Source: Haliclona indistincta
Lineage: Eukaryota > Porifera > Demospongiae > Haplosclerida > Chalinidae
Assembly (NCBI GenBank): GCA_964017065.1
Contig: OZ024791.1
Span: forward strand, 3,171,410 to 3,235,409
DNA: 64,000 nucleotides
Direction of reading: 5' to 3'
A program made the position numbers and the translations under genes. Every line of letters starts with the position of its first letter. The stretch's first letter is position 1. Positions 8,458 through 62,000 of the stretch are shown piece by piece. The notes beneath the pieces are model-generated. The model saw only the letters and a program-made list of their open reading frames with translations. It searched no databases and was not told the origin of the DNA.

Positions 8458-8815
8458 AGCTTGATACTAGATCACCGTAGCGAGAGGGTGGTCGGCTTAC
8501 TCTTGTAGACCGTCGTGGAGGTTCCTTGTCAGTCGCTGTTTCTGGGACTGTTGGTTCCTCAGGTAGAGAGTTTGTAGGGGTCGGATCATGTGGACAAGGT
8601 ATGTCGAGAGTTTCAGAAACTTCTCTTTCAACTTGTGGTGGTGTTTCAATGTGAGCAGAGGTACGAGGTTGGATATGGTCAATATGTCTCCTGACAGATC
8701 TCTGGTCATCCAACATCACATCATAGTGTACATTGCCATTTCTCGCCACAATGGTTCCTGGAATCCAAGGAGACTTTGAACCTGCTTTCCTCACATACAC
8801 TTTATCCTGTGGCAC
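8456..8815 (-). CDS. Integrase C-terminal tail, frameshifted off pol
   Basis: 119 codons reading PQDKVYVRKAG, then SPWIPGTIV and a tail ending SRPPSRYGDLVSS. The VxVR and W.PGTI motifs are the usual C-terminal domain of Ty3/Gypsy integrases. The main pol frame terminates at 8791 just where this frame begins, in the text AREDR against the expected continuation. A single-base change near 8818 therefore probably separated it from pol. The downstream end runs up to the polypurine tract. Confidence 0.75.
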   Translation of the reverse strand: MPQDKVYVRKAGSKSPWIPGTIVARNGNVHYDVMLDDQRSVRRHIDHIQPRTSAHIETPPQVEREVSETLDIPCPHDPTPTNSLPEEPTVPETATDKEPPRRSTRVSRPPSRYGDLVSS

Positions 8816-12400: not shown

Positions 12401-12409
12401 CAGTGTTTT

Positions 12410-12423
12410 ATTCTCGTCGCCAA
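12410..12423 (-). other. Primer-binding-like site
   Basis: Immediately inside the 5' LTR the coding strand reads TTGGCGACGAGAAT. TGG at this position is the usual start of a tRNA primer site; the tRNA was not identified. Confidence 0.55.
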
Positions 12424-12679
12424 TGTAGTAACTTGCAGTTTGGCCAAAGATATTTTTATGATAGACACAATAGATCACAGCAACAAGAGGAATGATGAGT
12501 TAGTTCAAGAAGCACAGATTTATATACACATGAGATAGAATGAAAGAATGACCAAATATAGACAAAACACATGAGAGTGACAATGAGTAAGAGAGACAGA
12601 TGAAGTACACAAACCAAATAAGGGCAACACGACTAAAGTGACAATTACACACATTTAAAGTCAGGGTCCAGACACTACA
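12424..12679 (-). repeat. 5' LTR
   Basis: 256 bp, TGTAG...CTACA, the partner of 8189-8444 with one substitution. Confidence 0.95.
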
Positions 12680-29897: not shown

Positions 29898-32028
29898 TGT
29901 GACCAGATTTTGGAAAACCGGGAATATCGCACAGATATTCGTTTTGAGTTACAAGCGACTTTAGGTAGAAAATGATCGCCGACGCGATCTCGGTTTTTTG
30001 CGCTAGCTATAAAGCACTATCCTTTAGCTACAGTTTGGTACTAGCGCCAATCTTCTGAGCGCTATGGTTGCAAAGTTACGAGCGTTTGTTTGTAGGTAAC
30101 TGAATTCAGCCATAATACGTGATACGGAGCTAATAATTGCGTTGCTATGGCAATTATTTGACGCGCGCGTACACTGCTGCACAAAGAAGGACGAGTTGCC
30201 TCCACGTTCAACGCTCTAGCTCAAGATAGCTTCGATGGAGCAACTGCAGCTAGCCTCTGATGACTGCTTGCTGCAGTTGCTGATGACTGCTTTAGTGATT
30301 TGTCTGAATAATTTGTCTGGTATGTGATGAATAACAGTATTAGCACATGAATAATGTCGTGCTATCACAGCTGCTATGATTTAGAAAGTGATTATAATGG
30401 CTCTTCACAAGATAGGGCTTCAATGTAATACCAAGAGCATACACACACTGCTACTGCTAGCTATGCAGCTCCTCCTGGTGCCTACAAATCTTGCTGTTGT
30501 ACCAAGATCACTGCCATCTAGTCGAGGGAACAGAGGGTATATCGTGCAGTTTGCTAGGTACTCAGATTGGTACTACGGCGAAGGCGGCAAGTGTGAGCTT
30601 GGTCCTAAGAAGACTTCATGGTCCTAGTTTCCACAGTACTACAGAGAGATGAGAGGATATTGTTATGAGCTGAACAGAGAAGAGTAAGATGTACTACTAA
30701 TGGGAAAGATCTACATAATCTTCATAGAAAACCGTACTTACAAACTCAACAGTTCACTCAAGCAAGCAATAGGTAAGTTGTGATAATGTGTGTGTGTGTG
30801 TGTGAATTAAGATTGTTGTGATAGTTGCGTGTGTGTGTGTGTGTGATAGTGTGTGGTGCCTACCTTTGATATTATTTTCTATTACTTGCTACAGGTTGAA
30901 GTCACATTGTAGACATGAGAGAAAGACAGCTACAAGCGATTGGTCACACAGAAATTGATGTGTTCTAATTATTGCTCATCAAGAAATGATTTCCCATAAT
31001 TCTTGCTCACTTTAAAGGCGTATCCGCACTACAAAGCGGTTTCAATTCGCATTGGCTCTGATTTAGATCAAACTGATTCAAGCCACATCGAGCACGTCCG
31101 CACTAGAACAAGATCAAGCAGAATCGAGCCAGTTGCTGGCGTCGATCACGTCATGTGACGTAAGCGACAGTTTGCTGAAAGCTAAAGAAACTAGCCTAGT
31201 CACGTACCAGCGCAAGCCTGATGTGTCCTACGCCTTGTTTTACTTCCAGCGCACACTAGGCGGTCTTAGTCAGCGCTCAAGTTAGCTGTCTTCACAAAGC
31301 ACGCCACGTGATTGAGGCCACACCCAGACTCAATTCAGTTACGATCGACTTGAAACCACATATGAAAGTGGATTGGGACAAATACGCATTGAATCTGGAT
31401 CTAATCCGGTTCGAGAATTTACGGATAGTGCGGACGAAGCCAAACCGCATTGAATGCGGTTTCAATGCGCATTAGAACGCCAGTGCGGAGACGCCTTAAG
31501 ATCATGATTAGTCAAATACAAAGTAGAAGGATTGAAAATAATGCTGTGTTAAAGAAATGTAACATTATAGTCGATAGAATACACTTATCAGACAGATTGT
31601 ACTTACCAGCATGGCTCAATCACATCAGTTTAGTTATCCAAGCCTTCTCCATAGCTAAAACCAGGTAAGAACAATTTCTCAACACTCGTGAAAGGCTGCT
31701 CAACACTCAGAAGAGACGTCACAGGCCTTGATAGCAAGAGAAAGAGAAGCCAGCTAGTTCAACCGGGAAATCATTAGCGCCATGTGCTCGTGCACGGAAG
31801 AATGCGGACACGCCCACGCGTAAATGATTTACAAGTTTACACGCGATTATCTTGAAAAAATGTTTTGCTAAAACAGCGCGCGTTTTAGTTTATATCTTAG
31901 CGACGGAATGCACGATCTCGGCGCTTCAAACGTTACTATGACCAGCGAAGACAGGGCTATTGCCAGGTACCAATAACTCCATTTTCGAAATCTGCGCGAT
32001 ATTCCCAGTTCTCCAAAATCGGGTCACA
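29898..32028. mobile_element. TGTGACC-family element 1 (non-autonomous)
   Basis: Starts TGTGACCAGATTTTGG and ends CCAAAATCGGGTCACA, an inverted pair of about 40 bp. The interior is nearly identical to 48336-49962 except for a 481-bp MITE at 31016. It keeps relics of the first exons and of the Cys block (GGKCELGPKKTSW) of the gene in 42421-46263 but lacks the rest. A 79-codon frame at 30388-30627 is such a relic. (TG)n microsatellite at 30788-30845. Confidence 0.85.
31013..31499. mobile_element. Harbinger-like MITE with TAA duplication
   Basis: The element is 31016-31496. Ends AGGCGTATCCGCACT and AGTGCGGAGACGCCT, flanked by TAA (31013-31015 and 31497-31499). The paralogous element at about 49431-49440 has the uninterrupted site CTTTAAGATC, proving insertion and giving the duplication. 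Internal repeats of GCGGTTTCAATKCGCATT. Non-coding. Confidence 0.88.
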
Positions 32029-39413: not shown

Positions 39414-41035
39414 TGTGACCCGATTTTGGAAAACCCGGAATGTCGCGCAAATTTCGAAAATTGAGTTATTGGTACCTGGCAATAGCCCTGTCTTCGCCGG
39501 TCGTAGTAACGTTTGAATCGCTGAGATCGTGCATTCCGTCGCTAAGATATAAACTAAAACGCGCGCTGTTTTAGCAAAACATTGTTTCAAGATAATCGCG
39601 TGTAAACTTGTAAATAATTTACGCGTGGGCGTGTCCGCATTCTTCCGTGCACGAGCACATGGCGCTAATGGTTTCCCGGTTGAACTAGCTCACTTCTCTT
39701 TCTCTTGCTAACAAGGCCTGTTACGTCTCTTCTGAGTGTTGAGAAGCCTTTCTTGAGTGTTGAGAAGTTGTTCTTACCTGGTTTTAGCTATGGAGAAGGC
39801 CTGGATTACTAAACTGATGTGTGTGAGCCATGCTGGTAAGTACAATCTGTCTGATAAGTGTATTCTATCGACTATAATGTTAGATTTCTTTAACACAGCA
39901 TTGTTTTTAAGCCTTCTACTTTGTATTTGACTAATTATGATCCTAAAGTGAGCAAGAATTATGGGAAATCATATGATGAGCAGTAATTAGAACAGTTCCA
40001 TTGCTGTGTGACCAATCGCTTGATGCTGTCTCTCTCTCATGTTTATCAACCTGTAACAAAGAATAGGAAATGATATCAAAGCTAGGTACCACACACTATC
40101 ACACACACACACACACTATCACACAGACACACACACATTATCACACAGAAACACACAACTATCACAACAATCTTCACACACACATACGTTTCACAACTTA
40201 CCTATTGCTTGCTTGAGTGAGATTGAGTACTGATGCTCTTGTTAGTATGGTTTTCTATGAAGATCTTTCCCATTAGTAGTTCTTTCTCTTCTCTGTTCAT
40301 CTCATGACAATATCCTCTCATCTCTCTATAGTACTCTGGAAACTAGGACCATGAAGTCTTCTTAGGACCAAGCTCACACTTGCTGCCTTCTCTGTATAGT
40401 ACCGGCCGGAGCAAACGGCATGATAATTATACCCTCTGTTCCCTCACTAGATCTGGGTACAGCAGCAAGATTGGTTGTCACCAGAAGGAGCTGGATAGCT
40501 AGCAGTAGCAGTGTGTGTATTACATTGAAGCCTTATCTTGTCAAGAGCCACTATAATCGCTTTCTAAACATAGCAGTTGTGAAAGCAATACATTATTCAT
40601 GTGCTAATACTGTTATTCATCACATACCAGACGAATTCTTCAGACAAATCACGAGAGCAGTCATCAGAGACGCCCCGGAGGCTATCTGCAGTTGCTTCAT
40701 CGAAGCTATCTTGAGCTAGGGCGTTGAACGTGGAGGCAACTCGTCCTTCTTTGTGCAGCAGTGTTCGCGCGCGTCAAATAGTTGCTATAGCAACGCAATT
40801 ATTAGCTCCGTATCACGCATTATGGCTGAATTCAGCTACCTACAAACAAACGTTCGTAACTTTGCAACCATAGCGCTCAGAAGATTGGCGCTAGTAACAA
40901 ACTGTAGCTAAAGGATAGCGCTTTATAGCTAGCGCAAAAAACCGAGATCGCGTATGCGATCATACTCTACCTAGAGTTGCTTATAACTCAAAACGAATAT
41001 CTGCGCGACATTCCGGGTTTTCCAAAATCGGGTCA
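39414..41035. mobile_element. TGTGACC-family element 2 (non-autonomous, inverted)
   Basis: Starts TGTGACCCGATTTTGG and ends CCAAAATCGGGTCA. It is reverse-oriented relative to the copies at 29898, 42421 and 48336. It lacks the transposase exons. An (AC)n microsatellite at about 40088-40150 corresponds to the (TG)n of the other copies. Its left junction is in the B-module arm, after AATAATAAAA. Confidence 0.85.
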
Positions 41036-42420
41036 TAAATAATGGTAAAAAAATTATACAAAAAACATTGTTCCCATACCATAATCAATGCAAAGTGTGC
41101 GCATCAACACACAAGTGTGCGAACAATGTTTTTTATTTAATTTTTTTATTTAATTTTTTTACAATTATTTATTATTATTAAATTTTTTTATGTATGTGGT
41201 TCCAAATGTATTATTGAAAAAATATATAATAATTATATAATGGTAAAAAAAATTAATTAAAAAATTAAATTAAAAACAATGTTCCCATGATGCCTGGGAA
41301 CGATGCTTTTATTTAATTTTTTTTAAATTTTTTTATTTTAATTTTTTTTACCATTATTTTATAATTGTTATATATTTTTTTCAATAGTACACAAGGAACC
41401 ACAAACATTAAAAATATAATAATAATAAAACAAGGGTAAAAAAATTAAATCAAAAAATTAAATAAAAACCATTGTTCACATACCCTAATCTATGCAAAGT
41501 GTGCGTTTCCGGGCACAGTGAAGCCACAAATGTGCAAAAAAATCGCCGCGGCGCCGAGTGCCTTTCGCTCCCTACCTACGGGATGCAAACCTATGTCACT
41601 CTTCGGTTACAGTAATGAATAAGCGTGAGAAACAATTTTGGTTTTTTTAGGGAAAATTCCCATTCTACACTTTTATGTATGTGGTTCCTTGTGTGTTATT
41701 GAAAACAAAATTTTTTTTATTTTAATTTTTTTTACCATTATTTTATTATTATTATGTTTTTTTCAATATTACACAAGAAACCACACACATAAAAAATATA
41801 ATAATAATAAAAATTAATAATGGTAAAAAAAATTAAATAAAAAAAATTGTTCCCAGGCTTCATGGGAACATTGTTTTTAATTTAATTTTTTTATTTTAAT
41901 TTTTCTTTCCATTATTTTATTATTATTATGTGTTTTTCAATAGTACACTAGGAACCACATATATAAAAATATAATCATAAAATAATGGTAAGAAAATGAA
42001 ATAAAAAACATTGTTCCCAGGCGTCATGGGAACATTGTTTTGAATTTAATTTTTTTATTTTAATTTTTTTTACCATTATTTTATTATTATTATATATTTT
42101 TTTCAATTATACACAAGGAACCACATACATAAAAAATATAATAATAATAAAATAATGGTATACAATATATATGAAAAACATTGTTCCCAGGCATCATGGG
42201 AACATTGATTTTAATTTAATTTTTTATTTTAATTTTTTTTACCATTATTTTATTATTATTATATATTTTTTTCAATAGTACACAAGGAACCACATATATA
42301 AAAAATATAATAATAATAAAATAATGGTAAAAAAAATTAAATAAAAAACATTGTTCCCAGGCATCATGGGAACATTGATTTTAATTTAATTTTTTATTTT
42401 AATTTTTTTTACCATTATTT
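41036..42420. repeat. AT-rich dyad array, block 6
   Basis: A/B modules. The last three A modules (42010, 42180, 42350) are nearly identical and spaced about 170 bp, a local recent amplification. A family-Q segment lies at about 41470-41670. Confidence 0.88.
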
Positions 42421-42638
42421 CGTGCATACGATTTCGTTTTTTTTGCGCTAGCTATAAAGCGCTATCCTTTAGCTACAGTATGGTGCTAGCGCCAATCTTC
42501 TGAGCGCTATGGCTGCAAAGTTACGAGCGTTTGTTTGTAGGTAACTGGATGTAGCCATTATACGTGATACGGAGCTAATAATTTCGTTGCTATGGCGATT
42601 AATTTGACGCGCGCGAACACGGCTGCACGAAGAACACT

Positions 42639-45278
42639 ATGGCAGGTCGAGTAGCCACCGCGCTGAACGCTCTAGCTCGAGATAGCTTTGACGAATCAAC
42701 TGCAGTTAGCCTCCAAGGCTTCATTGATGACTACTTCGGTGATCCAACTGAAGATTTCTCTGGTATGCAATGAATAACAGTATTAGCACATGAATAATGT
42801 TGAACTATCACAACAAAGACGATGATTTAGATTGGGAAGGTGATTATGACAGCTCTTTACAAGGTAAGGCTTCACTGTATTACACACACTAATACTGCTA
42901 GCTCTGCAGCTGCTTCTAGCGACAGTGATCTTGTTGCTGAACCAAGATGTGGTGAGGAACTTCCACTTGATGAATCTGTTGTCACTGTGCCTTGTCGCTC
43001 CAATACACCATCTCCTGAATTTGAGAGTAAGTTTATGAACATAAATTGTATGATAATTATTTGCTATTGTTTTACAGGTGAAGATGAAGCTGATGTAACT
43101 GACAACGACAATGCTCAAGGTACGTAGAGTACAATTCAGTAAAACATTCACAAACTAACTTACTGTTATGCAGAGGACGAACAGGTGCCGACATCGTCAG
43201 TGCATCAGTTTCTCGAGACAGTCACTCCTCAGTTCAGAAACATAGATACTAAGGAAGATGAACAGACATCTTGGTACAGTAGAGAAGGCTGCAAGTGTGA
43301 GCTTGGTCCCAAGAAAACTCCGTGTTGCCAGCAATTCCAAGCAGAGTGCTATCGTGAGATGCGAGGGTATTGTCTCGAGCTGAGGAGGGAGGAAAAGGAC
43401 ATACTGATAATGGGACAAATTAAAGCAATGACTAACAGTAGTGATCACGTCAGCACAGAGAACCGGCATAAAGATGCAGAGAGACAGAGAACAAGAGGAA
43501 ATTTCTTCCATGAAGCGAAACGCGTGTGTCTTCGCACTTTCCTCTTTTTACACGCCACTGGAAAGCATCAGTACGCCAACATGAAGAGCAGCTGCAGTGA
43601 GAATGGCATTGCACCCAGGGTGCATGGCAACACTAGAAGGCTTCCAGTGCATGCACTGACCTTTGATGATGTGTCCCGTGTAGTCTCCTTCATCAGGAAC
43701 TATGCTGAAGACCATGCCGTTCTGTTACCAGGACGTATCCCTGGGTACAAGCGTTCAGATCTGCAGTTGCTCCCATGTAGTACGACCAAATCTCGAGTGT
43801 GGAAGCTGTACACTAATGCCTGTGAGCTGTCTCACAGTCGTGAGGTAGCGTACACTTCCTTCTGTCGCATCTGGAGGACTCTTCTGCCCATGATTGTGCC
43901 TGCTAAGCCACGTACAGATCTGTGTGCAGAGTGTCATGCAAAGGCAGGGCTGCTAATGAGGAGCAGCAATCTCACTGAAGGAGAGAAGACAGAGGTAAAC
44001 GAACAAAAATTTAACGTACAATTAACATGCCAATGTTTACCTAACTATGCAGGCGCTGAAGGAGTACGAAGACCATCTCAGAATAGCTACCAGTGAGAGG
44101 GATGTTTACAGGGAAGCCTGCAAAGAGTAACGTCGCTGCAAAGAGCTGGGTCCACCACCATCCATGGCTCACTACAGCTTTGACTTTGCTCAGCAGTTCC
44201 ACTATCCAAGCGACCCCTTCCAGCCAGGTCCTGTATACTTCCTTACACCAAGGAAGTGTGCTCTATTTGGAATCTGCTGCGAGGCTATCCCTGAGCAAGT
44301 GAGTTTATTAAAGATGACAAAACACTCGACCAATACTTTGATAGGTCAACTACCTCATTGACGAGTCGGTAGCTGCAGGAAAAGGTGCCAACACTGTCAT
44401 CAGCTTGCTGCATCACTACCTAGAACACCATGGGCTTCAAGAGCGTGATGCCCATGCACTTCAATGCCGACAACTGCACAGGGCAGAATAAGAACAATGC
44501 TGTGATGCAGGTTAGGAAGTGATGCACAAGAGCAAGCACATGTATTGCATACAGCTTGCCTAACTGTTTGAGTAAGTATAATTATTGATTATTTTACCTT
44601 ATGCAGTACATGATGTGGAGAGTACTCACTGGTCGCCATGACAAGATCACCATCTCATTCCTTCTTGCCGGACACACGAAGTTCTCGCCAGACTGGTGTT
44701 TCGGTCTTGCGAAGCAGAAGCTGCGGCGAAGTATCATTGGCAGCCTGAATGATCTGGCGAACTCTATCACCAGCTCTGCTGCTCCCAACATCGCTGAGCT
44801 CGTCGGACTGGAAGATGGAACGGTGCTTGTGCCAATGTATGACTGGGTAGAGTTTCTAGGGCTCCACTTCCGCAAGATTCCCCAGATCAAGAAGCAGCAC
44901 CACTTCATCTTCACCACCACCAGTCGAGGGAAGGTTACCCTAAAGGAGTTCAATGACAGCGAGGAAGTGAAGTTTAAAATGCTCAAGGATGACTGGTCAC
45001 CTTCTGCTACTGATCTTCCTCCTGTTGTTACTCCTTCAGGGCTGTCTGCAGAGCGACAGTGGTATCTTTTTGATAGTATCAGAGAGTACTGCCCGGAGAC
45101 CTGTCGAGATGATGTGTGTCCACTGCCATCTGTTCCTCGTATGAGACATTCTGCTCCACCCAGTCCTGCAATGTCATTAACAGACATGGAACCACCATTG
45201 CTACCACCACAGTCTAAGAGAGCCCGCACATGCAGTGTGTGCGGAGAGGTTGGTCACAATGCTCGCCGTCACAAGTGA
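42639..45278 (+). pseudogene. DUF7869-like putative transposase, eight exons, two lesions
   Basis: Exons 42639-42762, 42819-42863, 42910-43026, 43078-43119, 43174-43994, 44053-44298, 44345-44510 and 44607-45278, all with GT..AG introns, encode about 743 residues. The head is acidic (DDDLDWEGDYDSS). Exon 5 has a Cys block (GCKCELGPKKTPCC) and CAECHAKAG. Exons 6-8 carry the conserved core: HYSFDFAQQFHYPSDP, VNYLIDESVAAGKGANTVIS, NADNCTGQNKNNAV and GHTKFSPDWCFGLAKQ. The C-terminus is a zinc knuckle CSVCGEVGHNARRH. Multicopy invertebrate proteins with this core are labelled DUF7869, from memory. The spaced Asp residues in SFDFAQQ and ADNCTGQ suggest an RNase-H-fold nuclease (inference). Lesions: an in-frame TAA at 44128-44130, and exon 7 is 166 nt where 165 is needed, a one-base insertion near 44450. 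Confidence 0.75.
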
Positions 45279-45357
45279 GGTGTGACGAGATCCCTTGCCG
45301 TCACAAGTGAAGTGTGACGAGATCCCTCGCCGTCACAAGTGTTGTGTGATGAGACCC
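45264..45357. repeat. Tandem triplication across the stop codon
   Basis: GCCGTCACAAGTGAGGTGTG and its unit of about 32 bp are repeated three times, beginning with the last codons of the transposase gene and running into the 3' region. Confidence 0.85.
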
Positions 45358-46263
45358 TTCTATTTCTTTTCTTTCGATAGGTTTTTCTAAAAACCAACTT
45401 TTAATTTCTTATTCCAACGGCTTTTTTTGGAGCCTAGCTTTGAACCTCTCTCACCCTCTTTCTCCCCCTTTCTACTTATTAACTACTCATTCCTCGGTTC
45501 AAAGTTAAACATACAAAAGGCTCCCTTTGGTAATCATTATACAAACCTGGATTCTTATCTCTCTCAAGCAAGCAACAAGATAAGTTTAGTGGTGATGTGT
45601 GTGTTGTACCTTTGTCTTATTCCTTGTTGCAGATTGAATTCAAGTTATACACACGAGAGGAAGACGCTGAATAGAAACTGTTCTAATTATTGCTCATCAA
45701 CAAGTGATTTTTATATAGCACTTACACAATTCGACATCATGTCTAGTCAAATACGTTGTTGAAGGCTTGACCAACAATGCTGTGTTACAGAATTTAACCG
45801 TAAGGTCGATAGAATACACCTATCAAACAGATGGTACTCACCAGCACTGCTCACATGCATCAGTTTAGCTATCCAGGCCTTCTCCAAAGCTAAAACCAGG
45901 TAAGAACAGCTTCTCAACGCAAAAGAAAGGCTCCTCAACACTCAGAAGAGACGTAACAAGCCTTCATAGCAAGAGAAAGAGAAGCGAGCGGGTTCAACCG
46001 GGAAATCATTAGCGCCATGTGCTCGTGCACGGAAGTACGCGGACACGCCCACGCGTAAATTATTTACATGTTTACACGCTATTATCTTGTAACAATGTTT
46101 TCCCAAAACAGCGCGCGTTTTAGTTTATATCTTAGCGACGGAATGCACGATCTCGGCGCTTCAAACGTTACCATGACCAGCGAAGACAGGGCTATTGCCA
46201 GGTACCAATAACTCCATTTTCGAAATGTGCGCGATATTCCCGGTTTTCCAAAATCGGGTCACA
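45358..46263. other. 3' region of element 3
   Basis: No gene. Homologous to the right parts of the copies at 29898, 39414 (inverted) and 48336, including the AGAAGAGACGTAACA and GCGCCATGTGCTCGTGCACG blocks and the right TIR. Confidence 0.7.
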
Positions 46264-46844: not shown

Positions 46845-47527
46845 TGTGACCTGCTTTGGAAAAAGGGACCATATCCCGCATTTTATCAAAATTGAGATAA
46901 CACCATTGCTAAATTGCGCATTCAATGCTGATTTCAATGGTACTTTCGGTTTAGCTATGCGTTGTTCTGTTGCCAAGATATAAAGCGCAACAGAGAAAGT
47001 ATTATCAAAGCAATGTTCAGAGAAAATTGCGTTTCAATGCAACATACAATGCTGAACGTGCAATTCCGTATACTGCACGCAACTCCGTGTATTCAACACG
47101 CCCACACACGAGCAGTGAGCGCTCGTTTTCACACTACTAGCTCGTTTTCACTGCTGTTTTCGCTCTCAGTGTTTAGACTAAACGTAGTCCAACTCCTATG
47201 GAAAGTTATTCGACTCAGCTGTGCGTTATAGTGGCGTACAGCTAGCTCGCCGTTCGTCGTCGCCATAGCAACGCATAGCGTCATCATTGCCACGCCTCCG
47301 TTTATTCAGTACGATGCCGGCTCTAGTGGCTGAAAGTAAACGCTCGCTCTGGAGAAACGAAGGCGCGTATGAGCCTCGCTATTGCGCCAAACAATGGGCA
47401 AAGGATCCAAGTTTATGAAACTAAACAAATCTAAACTTGACTAAGGTACCGGTTAGCAGCACATTTTCGCTCGTTTCTCAAAACATTAAATTGCGGGATA
47501 TGGTCCCTTTTGGCATAGACGGTCACA
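46845..47527. mobile_element. Second family with TGTGACC ends, 683 bp
   Basis: Starts TGTGACCTGCTTTGG with AAAGGGACCATATCCCGCA following, and ends with the inverted TGCGGGATATGGTCCCTTTT ... GGTCACA. The first seven bases match the TGTGACCCG family but the rest of the TIR and the interior do not. No gene. Its left junction is at AATAATAAAA in the B arm, the same position as element 2. Confidence 0.75.
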
Positions 47528-48335: not shown

Positions 48336-49962
48336 TGTGACCCGATTTTGGAAAACCGGGAATATCGCGCAGATATTCGTTTTGAGTTACAAGCGACTTT
48401 AGGTAGAAAATGATCGCCGACGCGATCTCGGTTTTTTGCGCTAGCTATAAAGCGCTATCCTTTAGCTACAGTTTGGTACTAGCGCCAATCTTCTGAGCGC
48501 TATGGTTGCAAAGTTACGAGCGTTTGTTTGTAGGTAACTGAATTCAGCCATAATACGTGATACGGAGCTAATAATTGCGTTGCTATGGCAATTATTTGAC
48601 GCGTGCGTACACTGCTGCACAAAGAAGGACGAGTTGCCTCCACGTTCAACGCTCTAGCTCAAGATAGCTTCGATGGAGCAACTGCAGCTAGCCTCCAGGG
48701 CTTCTCTGATGACTGCTTTAGTGATTTGTCGGAATAATTTGTCTGGTATGTGATGAATAACAGTATTAGCACATGAATAATGTCGTGCTATCACAGCTGC
48801 TATGATTTAGAAAGTGATTATAATGGCTCTTCACAAGATAGGGCTTCAATGTAATACCAAGAGCATACACACACTGCTACTGCTAGCTATGCAGCTCCTC
48901 CTGGTGCCTACAAATCTTGCTGTTGTACCAAGATCACTGCCATCTAGTCGAGGGAACAGAGGGTATATCGTGCAGTTTGCTAGGTACTCGGATTGGTACT
49001 ACGGCGAAGGCGGCAAGTGTGAGCTTGGTCCTAAGAAGACTTCATGGTCCTAGTTTCCAGAGTACTACAGAGAGATGAGAGGATATTGTTATGAGCTGAA
49101 CAGAGAAGAGTAAGAAGTACTACTAATGGGAAAGATCTACATAATCTTCATAGAAAACCGTACTTACAAACTCAACAGTTCACTCAAGCAAGCAATAGGT
49201 AAGTTGTGATAATGTGTGTGTGTGTGTGAAGATTGTTGTGATAGTTGCATGTGTGTGTGTGTGATAGTGTGTGGTGCCTACCTTTGATATTATTTTCTAT
49301 TACTTGCTACAGGTTGAAGTCACATTGTAGACATGAGAGAAAGACAGCATCAAGCGATTGGTCACACAGAAATTGAAGTGTTGTAATTATTGCTCATCAA
49401 GAAATGATTTCCCATAATTCTTGCTCACTTTAAGATCATGATTAGTCAAATACAAAGTAGAAGGATTGAAAACAATGCTGGGTTAAAGAAATGTAACATT
49501 ATAGTCGCTAGAGTACTCTTATCAGACAGATTGTACTTACCAGCATGGCTCAATCACATCAGTTTAGTTATCCAAGCCTTCTCCATAGCTAAAACCAGGT
49601 AAGAACAATTTCTCAACACTCGTGAAAGGCTGCTCAACACTCAGAAGAGACGTAACAGGCCTTGATAGCAAGAGAAAGAGAAGCCAGCTAGTTCAACCGG
49701 GAAATCATTAGCGCCATGTGCTCGTGCACGGAAGAATGCGGACACGCCCATGCGTAAATTATTTACAAGTTTACACGCGATTATCTTGAAACAATGTTTT
49801 GCTAAAACAGCGCGCGTTTTAGTTTATATCTTAGCGACGGAATGCACGATCTCGGCGCTTCAAACGTTACTATGACCAGCGAAGACAGGGCTATTGCCAG
49901 GTACCAATAACTCTATTTTCGAAATCTGCGCGATATTCCCGGTTTTCCAAAATCGGGTCACA
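48336..49962. mobile_element. TGTGACC-family element 4 (non-autonomous)
   Basis: TGTGACCCGATTTTGG ... CCAAAATCGGGTCACA, 1627 bp, flanked by TA on both sides. Nearly identical to element 1 apart from the MITE in the latter and a small indel near 48700; the 79-codon relic frame (48814-49053) is the same in both. Confidence 0.88.
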
Positions 49963-50195
49963 TATATATAATAATAATAAAATAATGGTAAAAAAATTAA
50001 AATAAATAATTAAATTAAAATCAATGTTCCCATGATGCCTGGGAACAATGTTTAATATTTAATTTTTTTTACCATTATACTATTACTATTATATTTTTTA
50101 TGTATGTGGTTCATTGTGTACTATTGAAAAAAATATATAATAATAACAAAATAATGGTAAAAAAAATTAAAATAAATAATTAAATTAAAAACAAA
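49963..50195. repeat. AT-rich dyad array, last block
   Basis: One A module (about 50025-50050) and one B module, then an abrupt change at about 50196 to the 43-bp satellite. Confidence 0.85.
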
Positions 50196-53100
50196 ACACT
50201 TTGGGATTCTGTGAATTCGCGGTGGGACCCCAATGGTGCACCCTTGGGGTATTGTGAAATCGCGGTGGGACCCCAATGGTGCACCCTTGGGTTTTTTTGA
50301 ATTCGCGGTGCGACCACAATGGTAAACTCTTGGGGTTTTGTGAATTCGCGGTGGGACCCCAATGGTGCACCCTTGGGGTGTTGAGAATTCGCGGTGGGTC
50401 CCCAATGGTGCACCCTTGGGGTTTTGTGAATTCGCGGTGGGACCCCAATGGTGCACCCTTGGGGTATTGTGAAATCGCGGTGGGACCCCAATGGTGCACC
50501 CTTGGGGTTTTGTGAATTCGCGGTGGAACCCAAAGGGTGCTTCCTTGGGATACCCTTGGGGTTCTGTGATTTCGCGGTGGGACACCAATGGTGCACAATT
50601 GGGGTTTTTTGAATTCGCTGTGGGACCCCAATGGTGCACCCTTGGGGTTTTGTGAATTCGCAGTGGGACCCCTATGGTGCACCTGTAGGGGATTTGTGAA
50701 TTAGCGGTGGGACCCCAATGGTGCACCCTTGGGGTTTTGTGAATTCGCGGTGGGACCCCAATGGTGCACCCTTGGGGTTTTGTGAATTCGCGGTGGGACC
50801 CCAATGGTGCACCCTTGGGGTTTTGTGAATTCGCGTGGACCCAAATGGTGCACTTTTGGGGTTTTGTGAATTCGCGGTGATACCCCAATGGTGCACCTTT
50901 GGGGTTTTGTTAATTCGCGGTGGGACCCCAATGGTGCACCCTTGGGGTTTTGTCAATTCGCGGTGGAACCCAAATGGTGCACCCTTGGGATACCCTTGGG
51001 GTTCTGTGAATTCGCGGTGGGACCCCAATGGTGCACCCTTGGGGTTTTGTGAATTCGCTGTGGCACCCCAATGGTGCACCCTTGGGGCTTTGTGAATTCG
51101 CGGTGGGAACCCAATGGTGCACCCTTGGGGTGTTGTGAATTCGTGGTGGGACCCCAATGGTGCACACTTGGGGTGTTGTGAATTCGCGGTGGGACCCCAA
51201 TGGTGCACCCTTGGGGTTTTGTGAATTCGCGTGGGACCCAAATGTTGCACTTTTGGGCTTTTGTGAATTCGCGGTGAGACCCCAATGGAGAACCCTTGGG
51301 GTTTAGTGAAATCGCGGTGGGACCCCAATGGTGCACCCTTGGGGTATTGTGAAATCGCGGTGGGTCCCCAATGGTGCACCCTTGGGGTTTTGTGAATTCG
51401 CGGTGGAACCCAAAGGGTGCTCCCTTGGGATACCCTTGGGGTTCTGTGAATTCGCGGTGGGACCCCAATGGTGCACCATTGGGGTTTTTTGAATTCGCTG
51501 TTGGACCCCAATGGTGCACCCTTGGGGATTTGTGAATTCGCGGTGGGACCCCAATGGTGCACCCTTGGGGTTTTGTGAATTCGCGGTGGGACCCCAATTG
51601 TGCACCCTTGGGGTTTTGTGAATTCGCGGTGGGACCCCAATGGTGCACCCTTGGGGTTTTGTGTATCGCGTGGGACCCAAATGGTGCACTCTTGGGGTTT
51701 TGTGAATTCGTGGTGAGACCCCAATGGTGCACCCTTGGGGTGTTGTGCATTCGCGGTGGGACTCCAATGGTGCACCATTGGGGTTTTGTGAATTCGCGGT
51801 GGAACCCAAAGGGTGCTCCCTTGGGATACACTTGGGGTTCTGTGAATTCGCGGTGGGACCCAAATGGTGCACCATTGTGGTTTTTTGAATTCGCTGTTGG
51901 ACCCCATTGGTGCACCCTTGGGGATTTGTGAATTCGCGGTGGGACCCCAATGTTGCACCCTTGGGGTCTTTTGAATTCGCGGTGGGACCCCAATGGTGCA
52001 CCCTTGGGGTTTTGTGAATTCGCTGTGGGACCCCAATGGTGCACCCTTGGGGCTTTGTGAATTCGCCGTGGGACCCCAATGGTGCACCCTTGGGGTGTTG
52101 TGAATGCCTGGTGGGACCCCAAAGGTGCACCCTTGGGGTGTTGTGCATTCGCGGTGGGACCCCAATGGTGCACCCTTGGGTTTTTTTGAATTCGCGGTGG
52201 AACCCCAATGGTGCACCCTTGGGGTTTTGTGAATTTGCGGTGGGACCCCAATGGTGCACCCTTGGGGTTTTGTGAATTCGCGGTGGAACCCAAATGGTGC
52301 ACCCTTGGGATACCCTTGGGGTTCTGTGAATTCGCGGTGGGACCCCAATGGTGCACCCTTGGGGTTTTGTGAATTCGCGGTGGGACCCCAATGGTGCACC
52401 CTTGGGGTTTTGTGAATTCGCTGTGGAACCCAAATGGTGCACAATTGGATACCCTTGAGGTTCTGTGAATTCGCGGTGGGACCCAATGGTGCACCCTTGG
52501 GGTGTTGTGAATTCGCGTTGGGACCCCAATGGTGCACCCTTGGGGTGTTGTGCATTCGCGGTGGGACCCCAATGGTGCACCTTTGGGTTTTTTTGAATTC
52601 GCGGTGTGACCACAATGGTAAACTCTTGGGGTTATGTCTATTCGCCGTGGGACGCCAATGGTGCACCCTTGGGGTGTTGTGAATTCGCGGTGGGACCCCA
52701 ATGGTGCACCCTTGGGGTTTTGTGAATTCGCGGTTGGACCCCTATGGTGCACCATTGGGGTTTTTTGAATTCGCTGTTGGACCCCAATGGTGCACCCTTG
52801 GGGATTTGTGAATTCGCGGTGGGACCCAAATGGTGCACCCTTGGGGTTTTGCGAATTCGCGGTGGGACCCCAATGGTGCACCCTTGGGGTGTCGTGAATT
52901 CGCGGTAGGACCCTAATGGTGCACCCTTGGGGTGTTGTGCATTCGCGGTGGGACCCCAATGGTGCACCCTTGGGTTTTTTGAATTCGCTGTGTGACCACA
53001 ATGGTGAACTCTTGGGGTTTTGTGAATTCGCGGTGTGACCTCAATGGTGCACCCTTGGGGTGTTGTGAATTCGCGGTGGGACCCCAATGGTGCACCCTTG

Positions 53101-56100
53101 GGGTTTTGTGAATTCGCGGTAAGACCCCAATGGTGCACCCTTGGGGTATTGTGAAATCGCGGTGGGACCCCAATGGTGCACCCTTGGGATTTTGTGAATT
53201 CGCGGTGGAACCCAAAGGGTGCTCTCTTGGGACACCCTTGGGGTTCTGTGAATTGTCGGTGGGACCCCAATGGTGCACCATTGGGAGTTTTTTGAATTCG
53301 CTGTTGGACCCCAATGGTGCACCCTTGGGGATTTGTGAATTCGCGGTGGGACCCCAATGGTGCACCCTTGGGGTTTTGTGAATTCGCGGTGGGAACCCAA
53401 TGGTGCACCTTTGGGGTTTTGTGAATTCGCGGTGGGACCCCAATCGTGCACCATTGGGGTTTTGTGTATCGCGTGGGACCCAAATGGTGCACTCTTGGGG
53501 TTTTGTGAATTCGCGTTGAGACCCTAATGGAGCACCCTTGGGCATCTGTGAATTCGCGGTGGGACCCCAATGGTGCACCCTTGGGGTGTTGTGCATTCGT
53601 GGAGGGACCCCAAAGGTGCACCCTTGGGGTTTTGTGAATTCGCGGTGGAACCCAAATGGTGCACCCTTGGGATACCCTTGGGGTTCTGTGAATTCGCGGT
53701 GGGACCCCAATGGTGCACCCTTGGGGTGTTGTGCATTCGTGGAGGGACCCCAAAGGTGCACCCTTGGGGTTTTGTGAATTCGCGGTGGAACCCAAATGGT
53801 GCACCCTTGGGATACCCTTGGGGTTGCGTGAATTCGCGGTGGGACCCCAATGGTGCACCCTTGGGGTTTTGTGAATTCGCGTTGGGACCCCAATGGTGCA
53901 CCCTTGGGGTTTTGTGAATTCGCTGTGGAACCCAAATGGTGCACAATTGGGATACCCTTGAGGTTCTGTGAATTAGCGGTGGGACCCCAATGGTGCACCC
54001 TTGGGGTGTTGTGAATTCGCGGTAGGACCCCAATGGTGCACCCTTGGGGTGTTGTGCATTCGCTGTGGGACACCAACGGTGCACCCTTGGGTTTTTTTGA
54101 ATTCGCGGTGTGACCACAATGGTAAACTCTTGGGGTTTTGTGAATTCGCGTTGGGACCCCAATGGTGCACCCTTTGGGTTTTGTGAATTCGCTGTGGAAC
54201 CCAAATGGTGCACAATTGGGATACCCTTGAGGTTCTGTGAATTCGCGGTGGGGCCCCAACGGTGCACCCTTGGGGTGTTGTGAATTCGCGGTTGGACCCC
54301 AATGGTGCACCCTTGGGGTGTTGTGCATTCGCGGTGGGACACCAACGGTGCACCCTTGGGTTTTTTTGAATTCGCGGTGTGACCACAATGGTAAACTCTT
54401 GGGGTTTTGTGAATTCGCGGTGGGACCCCAATGGTGCACCCTTGGGGTTTTGTGAATTCGCGTTGGGACCCCATTGGTGCACCCTTGGGGTTTTGTGAAT
54501 TCGCTGTGGAACCCAAATGGTGCACAATTGGGATACCCTTGAGGTTCTGTGAATTCGCGGTGGGACCCCAATGGTGCACCCTTGGGGTGTTGTGAATTCG
54601 CGGTAGGACCCCAATGGTGCACCCTTGGGGTGTTGTGCATTCGCGGTGGGACACCAACGGTGCACCCTTGGGTTTTTTTGAATTCTCGGTGTGACCACAA
54701 TGGTGCACCCTTGGGGTGTTGTGAATTCGCGGTGGAACCCCAATGGTGCACCCTTGGGGTTTTGTGAATTCGCTGTGGGACCCCAATGGTGCATTCTTGG
54801 GGCTTTGTGAATTCGCCGTGGGACCCCAATGGTGCACCCTTGGGGTGTTGCTAATGCCTGGTGGGACCCCAATGGTGCTCCCTTGGGGTGTTGTGCATTC
54901 GCGGTGGGACCCCAATGGTGCACCCTTGGGTTTTTTTGAATTCGCGGTGGAACCCCAATGGTGCACCCTTGGGGTTTTGTGAATTTCTGGTGGGACCCCA
55001 ATGGTGCACCCTTGGGGTTTTGTGAATTCGCGGTGGAACCCAAATGGTGCACCCTTGGGATACCCTTGGGGTTCTGTGAATTCGCGGTGGGACCCCAATG
55101 GTGCACCCTTGGGGTTTTGTGAATTCGCGGTGGGACGCCAATGGTGCACCCTTGGGGTTTTGTGAATTCGCTGTGGAACTTAAATGGTGCACAATTGGGA
55201 TACCCTTGAGGTTCTGTGAATTCGAGGTGGGACCCCAATGGTGCACCCTTGGGGTGTTGTGAATTCGCGGTGGGACCCCAATGGTGCACCCTTGGGGTGT
55301 TGTGCATTCGCGTTGGGACCCCAATGGTGCACCTTTGGGTTTTTTTGAATTCGCGGTGTGACCACAATGGTAAACTCTTGGGGTTAAGTGAATTCGCCGT
55401 GGGACGCCAATGGTGCACCCTTGGGGTGTTGTGAATTCGCGGTGGGACCCCAATGGTGCACCCTTGGGGTTTTGTGAATTCGCGGTGGGACCCCAATGGT
55501 GCACCCTTGGGGTATTGTGAAATCGCGGTGGGACCTCAATGGTGCACCCTTGGGGTTTTGTGAATTCGTGGTGGAACCCAAAGGGTGCTCCCTTGGGATA
55601 CACTTGGGGTTCTGTGAATTCGCGGTGGGACCCCAATGGTGCACCATTGGGTTTTTTGAATTCGCTGTTGGACCCCAATGGTGCACCCTTGGGGATTTGT
55701 GAATTCGCGGTGGGACCCCAATGGTGCACCCTTGGGGTTTTGTGTATCGCGTGGGACCCAAATGGTGCACTCTTGGGGTTTTGTGAATTCGCGGTGAGAC
55801 CCCAATGGTGCACCCTTGGGGTGTTGTGCATTCGCGGTGGGACCCCAATGGTTCACCCTTGGGGTTTTGTGAAATCGCGGTGGGACCCGAATGGTGCACC
55901 CTTGGGGTTTTGTGAATTTGCCGTGGGACCCCAATGGTGCACCCTTGGGGTGTTGTGAATGCGTGGTGGGACCCCAATGTTGCACCTTTGGGGTGTTGTG
56001 CATTCGCGGTGGGACCCCAATGGTGCACCCCTGGGTTTTTTTGAATTCGCGGTGGAACCCCAATGGTGCACCCTTGGGGTTTTGTGTATCGCGTGGGACC

Positions 56101-57949
56101 CAAATGGTGCACTCTTGGGGTTTTGTGAATTCGCGGTGAGACCCCAATGGTGCACCCTTGGGGTGTTGTGCATTCGCGGTGGGACCCCAATGGTGCACCC
56201 TTGGGGTTTTGTGAAATCGCGGTGGGACCCCAATGGTGCACCCTTGGGGTTTTGTGAATTCGCCGTGGGACCCCAATGGTGCACCCTTGGGGTGTTGTGA
56301 ATGCGTGGTGGGACCCCAATGTTGCACCTTTGGGGTGTTGTGCATTCGCTGTGGGACCCCAATGGTGCACCCTTGGGTTTTTTTGAATTCGGGGTGGAAC
56401 CCCAATGGTGCACCCTTTGGGTTTTGTGAATTCGCGGTGGGACCCCAATGGTGCACCCTTGGGGTTTTGTGAATTCGCGGTGGAACCCAAATGGAGCACC
56501 CTTGGGATACCCTTGGGGTTCTGCGAATTCGCGGTGGGACCCCAATGGTGCACCCTTTGGGTTTTATGAATTCGCGGTGGGACCCCAATGGTGCACCCTT
56601 GGGGTTTTGTGAATTCGCTGTGGAACCCAAATGGTGCACAATTGGGATACCCTTTAGGTTCTGTGAATTTGCGGTGGGACCCCAATGGTGCACCCTTGGG
56701 GTGTTGTGAATTCGCGGTGGGACCCCAATGGTGCACCCTTGGGGTGTTGTGCATTCGCGGTGGGGCCCCAATGGTGTACCTTTGGGTTTTTTTGAATTCG
56801 CGGTGTGACCACAATGGTAAACTCTTGTGGTTATGTGAATTCGCCGTGGGACGCCAATGGTGCACCCTTGGGGTGTTGTGAATTCGCGGTGGGACCCCAA
56901 TGGTGCACCCTTGGGGTTTTGTGAATTCGCGGTGGGACCCCAATGGTGCACCCTTGGGGTTTTGTGAAATCGCGGTTGGACTCCAATGGTGCACCCTTGG
57001 GGTTTTGTGAATTAGCGGTGGGACCCCAATGGTGCACCCATGGGGTTTTGTGAAATCGCGGTGGGACCACAATGGTGCACCCTTGGGGTTTTGTGAATTC
57101 GCGGTGGAACCCAAAGGGGGCTGCCTTGGGATACCCTTGTGGTTCTGTGAATTCGCGGTGGGACCCCAATGGTGAACCATTGGGGTTTTTTGAATTCGCT
57201 GTTTGACCCCAATGGTGCACCCTTGGGGATTTGTGAATTCGCAGTGGGACCCCAATGGTGCACCCTTTGGGTTTTGTGAATTCGCGGTGGGACCCCAATG
57301 GTGCACCCTTGGGGTTTGGTGAATTCGCGGTGGGACCCCAATGGTGCACCTTTGGGGTTTTGTGAATTCGCGGTGGGACCCCAATGGTGCACCATTGGGG
57401 TATTGTGTATTGCGTGGGATCCAAATGGTGCACTCTTGGGGTTTTGTGAATTCGCGGTGAGACCCTAATGGAGCACCCTTGGGGTTCTGTGAATTCGCGG
57501 TGGGACCCCAATGGTGCACCCTTGGGGTTTTGTGAATTCGCTGAGGGACCCCAATGGTGCACCCTTGGGGCTTTGTGAATTCGCGGAGGGACCCCAATGG
57601 TGCACCCTTGGGGTGTTGTGAATTCGTGGTGGGACACCAATGGTGCACACTTGGGGTGTTGTGCATTCGCGGAGGGACCCCAATGGTGCACCCTTGGGGT
57701 TTTGTGAATTCGCGGTGGAACCCAAATGGTGCACCCTTGGGATACCCTTGGGGTTCTGTGAATTCGCGGTGGGACCCAAATGGTGCACCCTTGGGGTTTT
57801 GTGAATTCGCGGTGGAACCCAAATTGTGCACCCTTGGGATACCCTTGGGGTTCTGTGAATTCGCGGTGGGACCCAAATGGTGCACCCTTGGGGTTTTGTG
57901 AATTCGCGGTGGAACCCAAATTGTGCACCCTTGGGATACCCTTGGGGTT

Positions 57950-59020
57950 CTGTGAATTCGCGGTGGGACCCCAATGGTGCACCCTTGGGGTTTTGTGAAT
58001 TCGCGGTGGGACCCCAATGGTGCACCCTTGGGGTTTTGTGAATTCGCTGTGGAACCCAAATGGTGCACAATTGGGATACCCTTGAGGTTCTGTGAATTCC
58101 CGGAGGGACCCCAATGGTGCACCCTTGGGGTGTTGTGAATTCGCGGTAGGACCCCAATGGTGCACCCTTGGGGTGTTGTGCATTCGCGGTGGGACACCAA
58201 CGGTGCACCCTTGGGTTTTTTGAATTCGCTATGTGACCACAATGGTAAACTCTTGGGGTTTTGTGAATTCGCGGAGGGACCCCAATGGTGCACCCTTGGG
58301 GTTTTGTGAATTCGCGGTGGAACCCAAATGGTGCACCCTTGGGATACCCTTGGGGTTCTGTGAATTCGCGGTGGGACCCCAATGGTGCACCCTTGGGGTT
58401 TTGTGAATTCGCGGTGGAACCCAAATGGTGCACCCTTGGGGTTCTGTGAATTCGCGGTGGGACCCCAATGGTGCACCCTTGGGGTTTTGTGAATTCGCGG
58501 TGGGACCCCAATGGTGCACCCTTGGGGTTTTGTGAATTCGCTGTGGAACCCAAATGGTGCACAATTGGGATACCCTTGAGGTTCTGTGAATTCCCGGAGG
58601 GACCCCAATGGTGCACCCTTGGGGTGTTGTGAATTCGCGGTAGGACCCCAATGGTGCACCCTTGGGGTGTTGTGCATTCGCGGTGGGACACCAACGGTGC
58701 ACCCTTGGGTTTTTTGAATTCGCTATGTGACCACAATGGTAAACTCTTGGGGTTTTGTGAATTCGCGGAGGGACCCCAATGGTGCACCCTTGGGGTTTTG
58801 TGAATTCGCGGTGGAACCCAAATGGTGCACCCTTGGGATACCCTTGGGGTTCTGTGAATTCGCGGTGGGACCCCAATGGTGCACCCTTGGGGTTTTGTGA
58901 ATTCGCGGTGGAACCCAAATGGTGCACCCTTGGGGTTCTGTGAATTCGCGGTGGGACCCCAATGGTGCACCCTTGGGGTTTTGTGAATTCGCGGTGGGAC
59001 CCCAATGGTGCACCCTTGGG
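57950..59020. repeat. 494-bp higher-order duplication within the satellite
   Basis: 57950-58525 and 58444-59020 are essentially the same monomer series shifted by 494 bp, including the variant GACCACAATGGTAAACTC at 58237 and 58731. Confidence 0.85.
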
Positions 59021-59033
59021 GTGTTGTGAATTC

Positions 59034-62000
59034 GCGGTGGAACCCCAATGGTGCACCCTTGGGGTTTTGTGAATTCGCCGTGGGACCCCAATGGTGCACC
59101 CTTGGGGTATTGTGAAATCGCGGTGGGAACTCAATGGTGCACCCTTGGGGTTTTGTGAATTCGCGGTGGAACCCAAAGGGTGCTCCCTTGGGATACCCTT
59201 GTGGTTCTGTGAATTCGCGGTGGGACCCCAATGGTGCACCATTGGGGTTTTTTGAATTCGCTGTTGGACCCCAATGGTGCACCCTTGGGGATTTGTGAAT
59301 TCGCGGTGGGACCCCAATGGTGCACCCTTGGGGTTTTGTGAATTCGCGGTGGGACCCCAATGGTGCACCCTTGGGGTGTTGTGAATTCGCGGTAGGACCC
59401 TAATGGTGCACCCTTGGGGTGTTGTGCATTCGCGGTGGGACCCCAATGGTGCACCCTGGGGTTTTTTGAATTCGCTGTGTGACCACAATGGTGAACTCTT
59501 GGGGTTTTGTGAATTCGCGGTGGGACCTCAATGGTGCACCCTTGGGGTGTTGTGAATTCGCGATGGGACCCCAATGGTGCACCCTTGGGATTTTGTGAAT
59601 TCGCGGTGGGACCCCAATGGTGCACCCTTGGGGTATTGTGAAATCGCGGTGGGACTCCAATGGTGCACCCTCGGGATTTTGTGAATTCGCGGTGGAACCC
59701 AAAGGGTGCTCCCTTGGGACACCCTTGGGGTTCTGTGAATTCGCAGTGGGACCCCAATGGTGCACCATTGGGGTTTTTTGAATTCTCTGTTGGACCCCAA
59801 TGGTGCACCCTTGGGGATTTGTGAATTCGCGGTGGGACCCCAATGGTGCACCCTTGGGGTTTTGTGAATTCGTGGTGGGACCCCAATGGTGCACCGTTGG
59901 GGTTTTGGGAATTCGCGGTGGGACCCCAATGGTGCACCATTGGGGTTTTGTGTATCGCGTGGGACCCAAATGGTGCACTCTTGGGGTTCTGTGAATTCGC
60001 GGTGGGACCCCAATGGTGCACCCTTGGGATTTTGTGAATTCGCTGAGGGACCCCAATGGTGCACCCTTGGGGCTTTGTGAATTCGCGGTGGGACCCCAAT
60101 GGTGCACCCTTGGGGTGTTGTGAATTCGTGGTGGGACACCAATGGTGCACACTTGGGGTGTTGGGCATTCGCGGAGGGACCCCAATGGTGCACCCTTGGG
60201 GTTTTGTGAATTCGCGGTGGAACCCAAATGGTGCACCCTTGGGATACCCTTGGGGTTCTGTGAATTCGCGGTGGGACCCCAATGGTGCACCCTTGGGGTT
60301 TTGTGAATTCGCGGTGGAACCCAAATGGTGCACCCTTGGGATACCCTTGGGGTTCTGTGAATTCGCGGTGGGACCCCAATGGTGCACCCTTGGGGTTTTG
60401 TGAATTCGCGGTGGGACCCCAATGGTGCACCCTTGGGGTTTTGTGAATTCGCTGTGGAACCCAAATGGTGCACAATTGGGATACCCTTGAGGTTCTGTGA
60501 ATTCCCGGTGGGACCCCAATGGTGCACCCTTGGGGTGTTGTGAATTCGCGGTAGGACCCCAATGGTGCACCCTTGGGGTGTTGTGCATTCGCGGTGGGAC
60601 ACCAACGGTGCACCCTTGGGTTTTTTTGAATTCGCTATGTGACCACAATGGTAAACTCTTGGGGTTTTGTGAATTCGCGGAGGGAACCCAATGGTGCACC
60701 CTTGGGGTGTTGTGAATTCGCGGTGGAACCCCAATGGTGCACCCTTGGGGTTTTGTGAATTCGCCGTGGGACCCCAATGGTGCACCCTTGGGGTATTGTA
60801 AATCGCGGTGGGAACTCAATGGTGCACCCTTGGGGTTTTGTGAATTCGCGGTGGAACCCAAAGGGTGCTCCCTTGGGATACCCTTGTGGTTCTGTGAATT
60901 CGCGGTGGGACCCCAATGGTGCACCATTGGGGTTTTTTGAATTCGCTGTTGGACCCCAATGGTGCACCCTTGGGGATTTGTGAATTCGCGGTGGGACCCC
61001 AATGGTGCACCCTTGGGGATTTGTGAATTCGCGGTGGGACCCCAATGGTGCACCCTTGGGGATTTGTGAATTCGCTGTGGGACCCCAATGGTGCACCCTT
61101 GGGGTGTTGTGCATTCGCGGTGGGACCCCAATGGTGCACCCTGAGGTTTTTTGAATTCGCTGTGTGACCACAATGGTGAACTCCTTGGGTTTTGTGAATT
61201 CGCGGTGGGACCTCAATGGTGCACCCTTGGGGTGTTGTGAATTCGCGGTGGGACCCCAATTGTGCACCCTTGGGATTTTGTGAATTCGCGGTGGGACCCC
61301 AATGGTGCACCCTTGGGGTATTGTGAAATCGCGGTGGGACTCCAATGGTGGACCCTCGGGATTTTGTGAATTCGCGGTGGAACCCAAAGGGTGCTCCCTT
61401 GGGACACCCTTGGGGTTCTGTGAATTCGCAGTGGGACCCCAATGGTGCACCATTGGGGTTTTTTGAATTCTCTGTTGGACCCCAATGGTGCACCCTTGGG
61501 GATTTGTGAATTCGCGGTGGGACCCCAATGGTGCACCCTTGGGGTTTTGTGAATTCGTGGTGGGACCCCAATGGTGCACCGTTGGGGTTTTGTGAATTCG
61601 CGGTGGGACCCCAATGGTGCACCATTGGGGTTTTGTGTATCGCGTGGGACCCAAATGGTGCACTCTTGGGGTTTTGTGAATTCGCGGTGAGACCCTAATG
61701 GAGCACCCTTGGGGTTCTGTGAATTCGCGGTGGGACCCCAATGGTGCACCCTTGGGATTTTGTGAATTCGCTGAGGGACCCCAATGGTGCACCCTTGGGG
61801 CTTTGTGAATTCGCGGTGGGACCCCAATGGTGCACCCTTGGGGTGTTGTGAATTCGTGGTGGGACACCAATGGTGCACACTTGGGGTGTTGTGCATTCGC
61901 GGAGGGACCCCAATGGTGCACCCTTGGGGTTTTGTGAATTCGCGGTGGAACCCAAATGGTGCACCCTTGGGATACCCTTGGGGTTCTGTGAATTCGCGGT

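Follow-up and report, generated by a model that had tools for sequence, protein, structure and literature searches.

A DUF7869 gene framed by inverted ends in the sponge Haliclona indistincta very likely encodes the transposase of a little-described DNA transposon

Introduction

A 64,000-nucleotide stretch of the Haliclona indistincta genome (contig OZ024791.1, positions 3,171,410 to 3,235,409, forward strand; hereafter the window) carries, at 42421..46263 on the plus strand, a repeated element containing a gene of the Pfam family DUF7869 (PF25273), and raises the question of whether the protein of this gene moves the element in which it lies. We conclude with high confidence that the window holds a broken, 5′-truncated autonomous copy, together with non-autonomous copies, of a transposon with terminal inverted repeats (TIRs), and that DUF7869 is a transposase with three catalytic aspartates (DDD). 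The protein would thus very likely be what mobilizes these elements, which represent a transposon type that is little described. Ends, target site duplications (TSDs), near-identical dispersed copies and the placement of the gene between ends in several diverged lineages were observed in this one genome, whereas the fold and the conserved acidic residues were obtained from models and alignments.

Results

The coding copy of the window follows an eight-exon layout, as the sequence-only reading of this DNA had proposed, but its gene is no longer intact. Exon 1 (42639..42762, with the start codon at 42639) and exon 2 (42819..42863) are arranged as in the intact relative L069 described below, exons 3 (42910..43026) and 4 (43078..43119) are poorly conserved compared with it, and exon 5 (43174..43994) encodes the cysteine-containing N-terminal part. 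The first Asp of the putative catalytic core (codon 44182-44184, in SFDFAQQ) lies in exon 6 (44053..44298), which is interrupted by an in-frame TAA at 44128-44130; the second (codon 44469-44471, in ADNCTGQNKNN) lies in exon 7 (44345..44510), where four extra nucleotides relative to L069 break the frame; and the third (codon 44691-44693, in GHTKFSPDW) lies in exon 8 (44607..45278), whose frame matches PF25273 with 44.8 bits (cut-off 26). The zinc-knuckle tail that had been proposed is present inside exon 8 (45231-45275, CCHH) and reads C-x2-C-x4-H-x4-H in both the window copy and L069, and C-x2-C-x4-H-x4-C in the family members P0001 and P0005. Read by eye in two sequences, P0001 shows TKRH and PVGH, and L069 TGRH and LAGH. 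All exons lie on the plus strand. The 39 bp right TIR (46225..46263, minus strand) is retained, whereas the left TIR and about 79 bp are gone, the alignment to L069 beginning at nucleotide 80 of the latter. As one end is lost and the gene is broken, the window copy alone is not direct evidence that DUF7869 proteins are transposon-encoded, contrary to what had been claimed from it; that proposal is instead carried by L069 and by diverged loci elsewhere in the genome.

L069 (C1:17307089-17310981) is a 3,893 bp copy in the same 144-Mb genome that possesses both TIRs and a TA duplication and is 84% identical in DNA to the coding copy of the window. Its gene is predicted to consist of eight exons, with all seven introns bounded by GT-AG, and would encode an open 733-amino-acid protein that matches PF25273 with 64.9 bits (E 9.6e-18; cut-off 26). 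Three further loci, L070, L089 and L090, were read from end to end and showed TGTGACC ends, a TA duplication and a DUF7869-matching gene in between; identity with the L069 protein amounts to 29-60% in the matched pieces. L089 and L090 nearly duplicate one another. Joint reading of L100 and L101 gave another two-ended cluster at C9:2722433-2725680, the seventh found in the genome, with TIRs 97% identical over 32 nt and a TT duplication, and termini were also found at C1:12556229-12559722 and C1:4369820-4373392. L091 was at one stage taken to lack ends, a reading that was dropped when an end was found 499 bp beyond the gene under looser inner letters; it had been missed by a pattern requiring ATTT after TGTGACC.

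The association of ends with DUF7869 genes was measured across the whole genome, in which a hidden Markov model search gave 39 matches and a protein search 87 pieces in 50 clusters. These clusters were compared with 269 TIR places among the matches listed for four end patterns, all derived from ends of the DUF7869 group itself, and an end was counted when correctly oriented and within 2 kb of the gene. At least 15 of the 50 clusters had such an end and at least six had both, while a wrongly oriented neighbouring end was seen at one of the 50 among the matches listed; in 1000 trials of random placement, clusters with a correctly oriented end averaged 0.20 and never exceeded three. With the six loci tied to the patterns excluded, at least nine of 44 clusters retained an end, one of them both (null mean 0.15, maximum 2), and among the 16 clusters spanning at least 1 kb the figures were at least 11 with an end and at least six with both. 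The association is strong, though established for only part of the relatives.

The ends themselves were examined both in the window and in the genome. With up to three mismatches, TGTGACCCGATTTTGG matches the window seven times (100 shuffles: mean 0.91, maximum 4), and these seven matches delimit three two-ended elements and mark the coding copy on its right side alone. Of the four copies previously said to share inverted ends, three are thus complete at both sides, whereas the coding copy has only its right TIR, and a fifth element had been missed. The three are a 2,131 bp copy at 29898..32028 (plus strand, TSD TT) and a 1,627 bp copy at 48336..49962 (plus strand, TSD TA), both of group N1 and differing by an extra piece of ∼480 bp at 31016-31495 in the former, and a 1,624 bp copy of group N2 at 39414..41037 (minus strand, TSD AA). 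The fifth element, to which no strand was assigned, spans 683 bp at 46845..47527, has a TSD of AA and carries the TGTGACC-type ends TGTGACCTGCTTTGGAAAAAGGGACC and TGTGACCGTCTATGCCAAAAGGGACC, whose inner letters differ from those of the other window copies; they show two and no mismatches, respectively, to the pattern derived from the DUF7869 element at C1:4369820-4373392. In the genome, the TIR TGTGACCCGATTTTGGAAAACC was matched 106 times with up to three mismatches and its reversed control not at all, so that the search for further copies suggested by the sequence-only reading led to many, the intact L069 included.

Twenty bounded places were read from the genome, including the diverged relative L070 with its variant end. 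A 2 bp direct repeat is present at 29 of 30 distinct bounded sites (TA at 18, AA at six and TT at five), whereas mismatched pairs of left and right flanks agreed at a rate of 0.43 (binomial P 4e-10). The target conforms to A-WW-T at 26 of the 30 sites and, because the TIR starts with T and ends with A, such sites may also be read as a 4 bp duplication; this reading fits 25 of the 30, although an exact 4 bp flank repeat occurs in only three. At four sites (L081, L086, L098 and, by one base, L092) 2 bp fits and 4 bp fails, at L079 neither fits, and an exact 3 bp repeat was found at none of the 30. In a first set of 30 sites, 11 lie within repeats in which the flanks, minus one copy of the duplication, recur elsewhere as uninterrupted DNA, with or without small gaps, the cleanest case being L075 with 118 nt at 99.2% identity and no gap.

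Several short elements with such ends were seen besides. L081 (C4:1447746-1447812) and L083 (C5:3534496-3534562) are 67 bp elements of almost pure TIR; their flanks are identical but in opposite orientation on two contigs, and they were counted as a single site, probably representing one insertion in a duplicated segment. Families of miniature inverted-repeat transposable elements (MITEs) of ∼240-260 bp with TGTGACCGGATCTGGGAAAATG or TGTGACCTAATTTGCGAAAAGGGGTA ends occur elsewhere in the genome (for example at C1:16913887-16914133, C7:2158510-2158750 and C3:9150453-9150711), and the DUF7869 element at C1:12556229 begins on its left side with the same letters as the TGTGACCTAATTTGCGAAAAGGGGTA end. 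At C6:9337848-9348265 a TIR pair lies 10.4 kb apart with transposon sequence adjoining both ends, which probably reflects a large insertion nested in a short copy.

The relation of the short copies to the gene was followed in 17 non-autonomous copies, three from the window and 14 from elsewhere in the genome. They fall into two groups of eight, with 97.5-99.3% and 95.4-99.7% identity within groups, and one outlier, L086. They retain DNA matching nucleotides 1 to ∼541-576 of the coding element, which covers exons 1 and 2, together with part of exon 5 and some 490-600 nucleotides at the 3′ end (in L079 as two pieces). Each of the 17 contains an exon-1-like protein stretch, which a stop interrupts in seven of them; the motif with which exon 1 starts (17 letters, up to three substitutions) was found in none of the 17. 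Their description as internally deleted versions that keep the first exons therefore stands as far as the DNA is concerned but not as to their parent: the pieces of at least 100 nt are only ∼72-94% identical to the intact coding copy, so that the short copies stem from a relative and not from the intact copy itself.

Structure prediction agreed with the proposed RNase-H-type transposase core. The core was predicted to be RNase-H-like rather than of a non-nuclease fold, and its best VIA-align matches were retroviral integrases and the Mos1 transposase, the latter heading the list for a second predicted model; Foldseek matches also included Argonaute, NurA and terminase nucleases, while a Foldseek search of a viral structure library gave no match under 1e-3. 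Three conserved Asp residues occupy what appear to be DDE positions (D335, D414 and D456 in P0001 numbering): in the P0001 model D335 lies in strand 326-336, D414 ends strand 406-414 and D456 lies in helix 454-467, and D125, D204 and D246 of the second model are placed likewise. In the passages of PMC5718144 that deal with the DDE/D class, its members are characterized by an RNase-H core with D residues on or near β1 and β4 and an E or D on or near a downstream helix. The predicted models have such a core and such acidic residues, and TIRs, a duplication of fixed length and non-autonomous derivatives, the other features of the class, are found in the genome. In addition, E380 of P0001, just before helix A, is invariant and H450, before the third Asp, is near-invariant. 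This arrangement resembles the four-residue sites of RNase H or Argonaute.

The family was further traced beyond the sponge in the best 120 of 303, 947 and 576 rows of three result sets, with organism names as attached by the sources. Relatives were found in the sponges Halichondria panicea and Dysidea avara, in Oculina, Montipora, Acropora and Stylophora, in Gigantopelta, Patella, Littorina and Babylonia, in Capitella, Lamellibrachia and Priapulus, in Diadema, Strongylocentrotus, Antedon and Amphiura, and in Salvelinus, Misgurnus, Solea and Pholidichthys, so that DUF7869 proteins range over sponges, corals, molluscs, annelids, echinoderms and fish. The top-ranked named relative among the best 120 rows is a sponge protein (41% identity over 99%). 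Up to 262 members fell within one 90% cluster, a count that may pool several assemblies, which hints that DUF7869 is abundant in some animals. Ten stretches of viral contigs matched a pattern but none encodes a relative, and two single matches to a TIR pattern were seen in such contigs. In a tree of 71 sequences built from the C-terminal catalytic part, L069 with the window copy and L070 formed one clade, whereas L089 and L090 grouped elsewhere with L091, P0036 and P0034 (Dysidea avara), as part of a larger clade that has support; the TGTGACC-type ends consequently occur on both sides of a deep division within the family, at least in this genome.

The surroundings of the copies in the window are rich in repeats. 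Dense A+T-rich palindromic units (ACCATTATTTTATTATTATTATAT, AACATTGTTCCCA, AAGGAACCACATA) occur on both strands, mostly between 27600 and 50100; the transposons are repeatedly inserted into them, and on other contigs, too, several copies are bordered by units of this kind. On the minus strand, long overlapping open frames at 50124-63993 contain a short tandem peptide repeat (e.g. NSQNPKGAPLGSHREFTKPQGCTIGVPPRIHKTPRVHHWGPTA) in more than one frame and probably represent a tandem DNA repeat and no gene, and a 1,041-amino-acid open frame at 8794-12499 with a zinc-knuckle-like stretch, CYRCGGNHHQTNCRFR, and an adjoining upstream frame looks, by eye, like a long terminal repeat (LTR) retrotransposon.

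Discussion

Several points weigh against DUF7869 as the transposase of these elements. Under the four patterns, 35 of the 50 gene clusters, including five of the 16 spanning at least 1 kb, have no end among the matches listed, so that the expectation that relatives of the gene bear these termini holds for L069, L070, L089, L090 and the loci at C9:2722433-2725680, C1:12556229-12559722 and C1:4369820-4373392, a subset of the relatives. A+T-rich palindromic repeats abound in the window, and its coding copy lacks one end, as might be seen if a host gene had come to lie by chance beside unrelated MITEs in a repeat-rich region. We regard such a coincidence as extremely improbable and dismissed it on the strength of the placement count, in which at least 15 clusters stand against a random mean of 0.20, and of the pieces of the DUF7869 gene itself that the short copies contain. 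Finally, the activity of DUF7869 is a matter of prediction, and the gene could be a host-derived passenger moved between its ends by another transposase; retention of gene pieces in the short copies would be compatible with this. Yet the arrangement of gene between ends recurs in lineages with only ∼29-60% identity in matched pieces, the predicted fold is of a nuclease type with invariant acidic residues, and all other L069 frames of at least 80 amino acids run across its exons in a different frame or on the opposite strand, which makes a passenger improbable.

If DUF7869 is the transposase, it would be an RNase-H-like DDD enzyme that recognizes the TGTGACC ends, excises the element and inserts it, with its DDD core cutting and joining, at a target that mostly reads A-WW-T, where a 2 bp duplication, mostly TA, results. 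Movement would be of the cut-and-paste type. For binding of the TIR DNA, the N-terminal part with its cysteines and the C-terminal knuckle are candidates, and the short copies may be mobilized in trans by the DUF7869 protein.

Whether one of the named superfamilies (Zator/ISAzo13, Sola, Tc1/mariner or a further one in Repbase) already includes the element, so that it lacks no more than a Pfam name, which would refine rather than replace its assignment as a transposon, was considered with the help of a Pfam scan of 63 members with matches listed to an E of 1. Twenty-four families were matched, among which there was neither a Tc1/mariner nor an integrase model, and the only transposase-named one was PF07592 (ISAzo13, a relative of Zator), found weakly and locally in five of the 63 members, with P0084 as the best match (E 9.4e-5, 22 bits). 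The rows inspected for PF07592, those of P0001 and of single scans of 30 of the 62 other members, contained four of the five matches, from P0001, P0031, P0084 and P0105, all aligning within profile positions 178-270 and, in P0001, spanning D414 and D456; none of these four reached the cut-off of 26.9 bits. PF07592 gave no match in the sponge's own genome, where the controls were equally silent. Two other candidates for a named relative, a single match in a sequence search of solved structures (E 0.45) and two matches in an NCBIfam scan of four proteins (E 0.07-0.08), were judged to be chance.

Tc1/mariner elements such as Mos1 and Sleeping Beauty are brought to mind by the position of Mos1 in the second-model list and by TA as the commonest duplication. 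A 2 bp TA duplication is the mark of that group; AA and TT account for 11 of the 30 sites here, and the eight exons of L069, the cysteine-containing N-terminal part and the C-terminal knuckle are further differences. Sola elements have a 4 bp duplication and, to our knowledge, a DDD transposase unrelated to the others; the 25 sites readable as 4 bp would suit them, but the four sites that distinguish the two lengths give 2 bp, in a comparison with Sola by description. For Zator, the part of PMC10045372 concerned with duplications gives 3 bp, in contrast to 2 bp here, and, within the group of retroviral integrases, IS3-IS481-Ginger and TnsB, the same part lists 4 bp for Ginger1, 4-5 bp for Ginger2, 3-6 bp for LTR elements and 2-15 bp for IS481. 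At the level of sequence, the PF07592 matches hint that the ISAzo13/Zator branch is distantly related, against which stands the lack of 3 bp duplications. In the literature searched, with Repbase outside the comparison, neither the domain nor its motifs were named, in agreement with the earlier description of the family as little described, and the Pfam description shown for PF25273, of which the protein is a member, gives no function. Membership in a named superfamily is conceivable but somewhat doubtful in our judgement, while we see an even chance that DUF7869 constitutes a separate superfamily of eukaryotic DNA transposons, absent so far from superfamily lists. Its features, as read and modelled in one genome, would be a DDD, possibly D-E-D-D, site in a predicted RNase-H fold, TGTGACC ends and a 2 bp duplication in A-WW-T. 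On its predicted features we file the element as a putative DDE/D transposon and assign it to no superfamily.

Beyond the Pfam entry PF25273, this work adds the ends, the duplication and a predicted fold. It offers a candidate transposase whose sole sequence link seen to a named family is the weak one to ISAzo13/Zator. Both the end motif and the target site can now be used in searches. A family so far labelled 'uncharacterized' or 'DUF7869' gains a likely function as a marker of transposons, and its genes could accordingly be masked or properly annotated.
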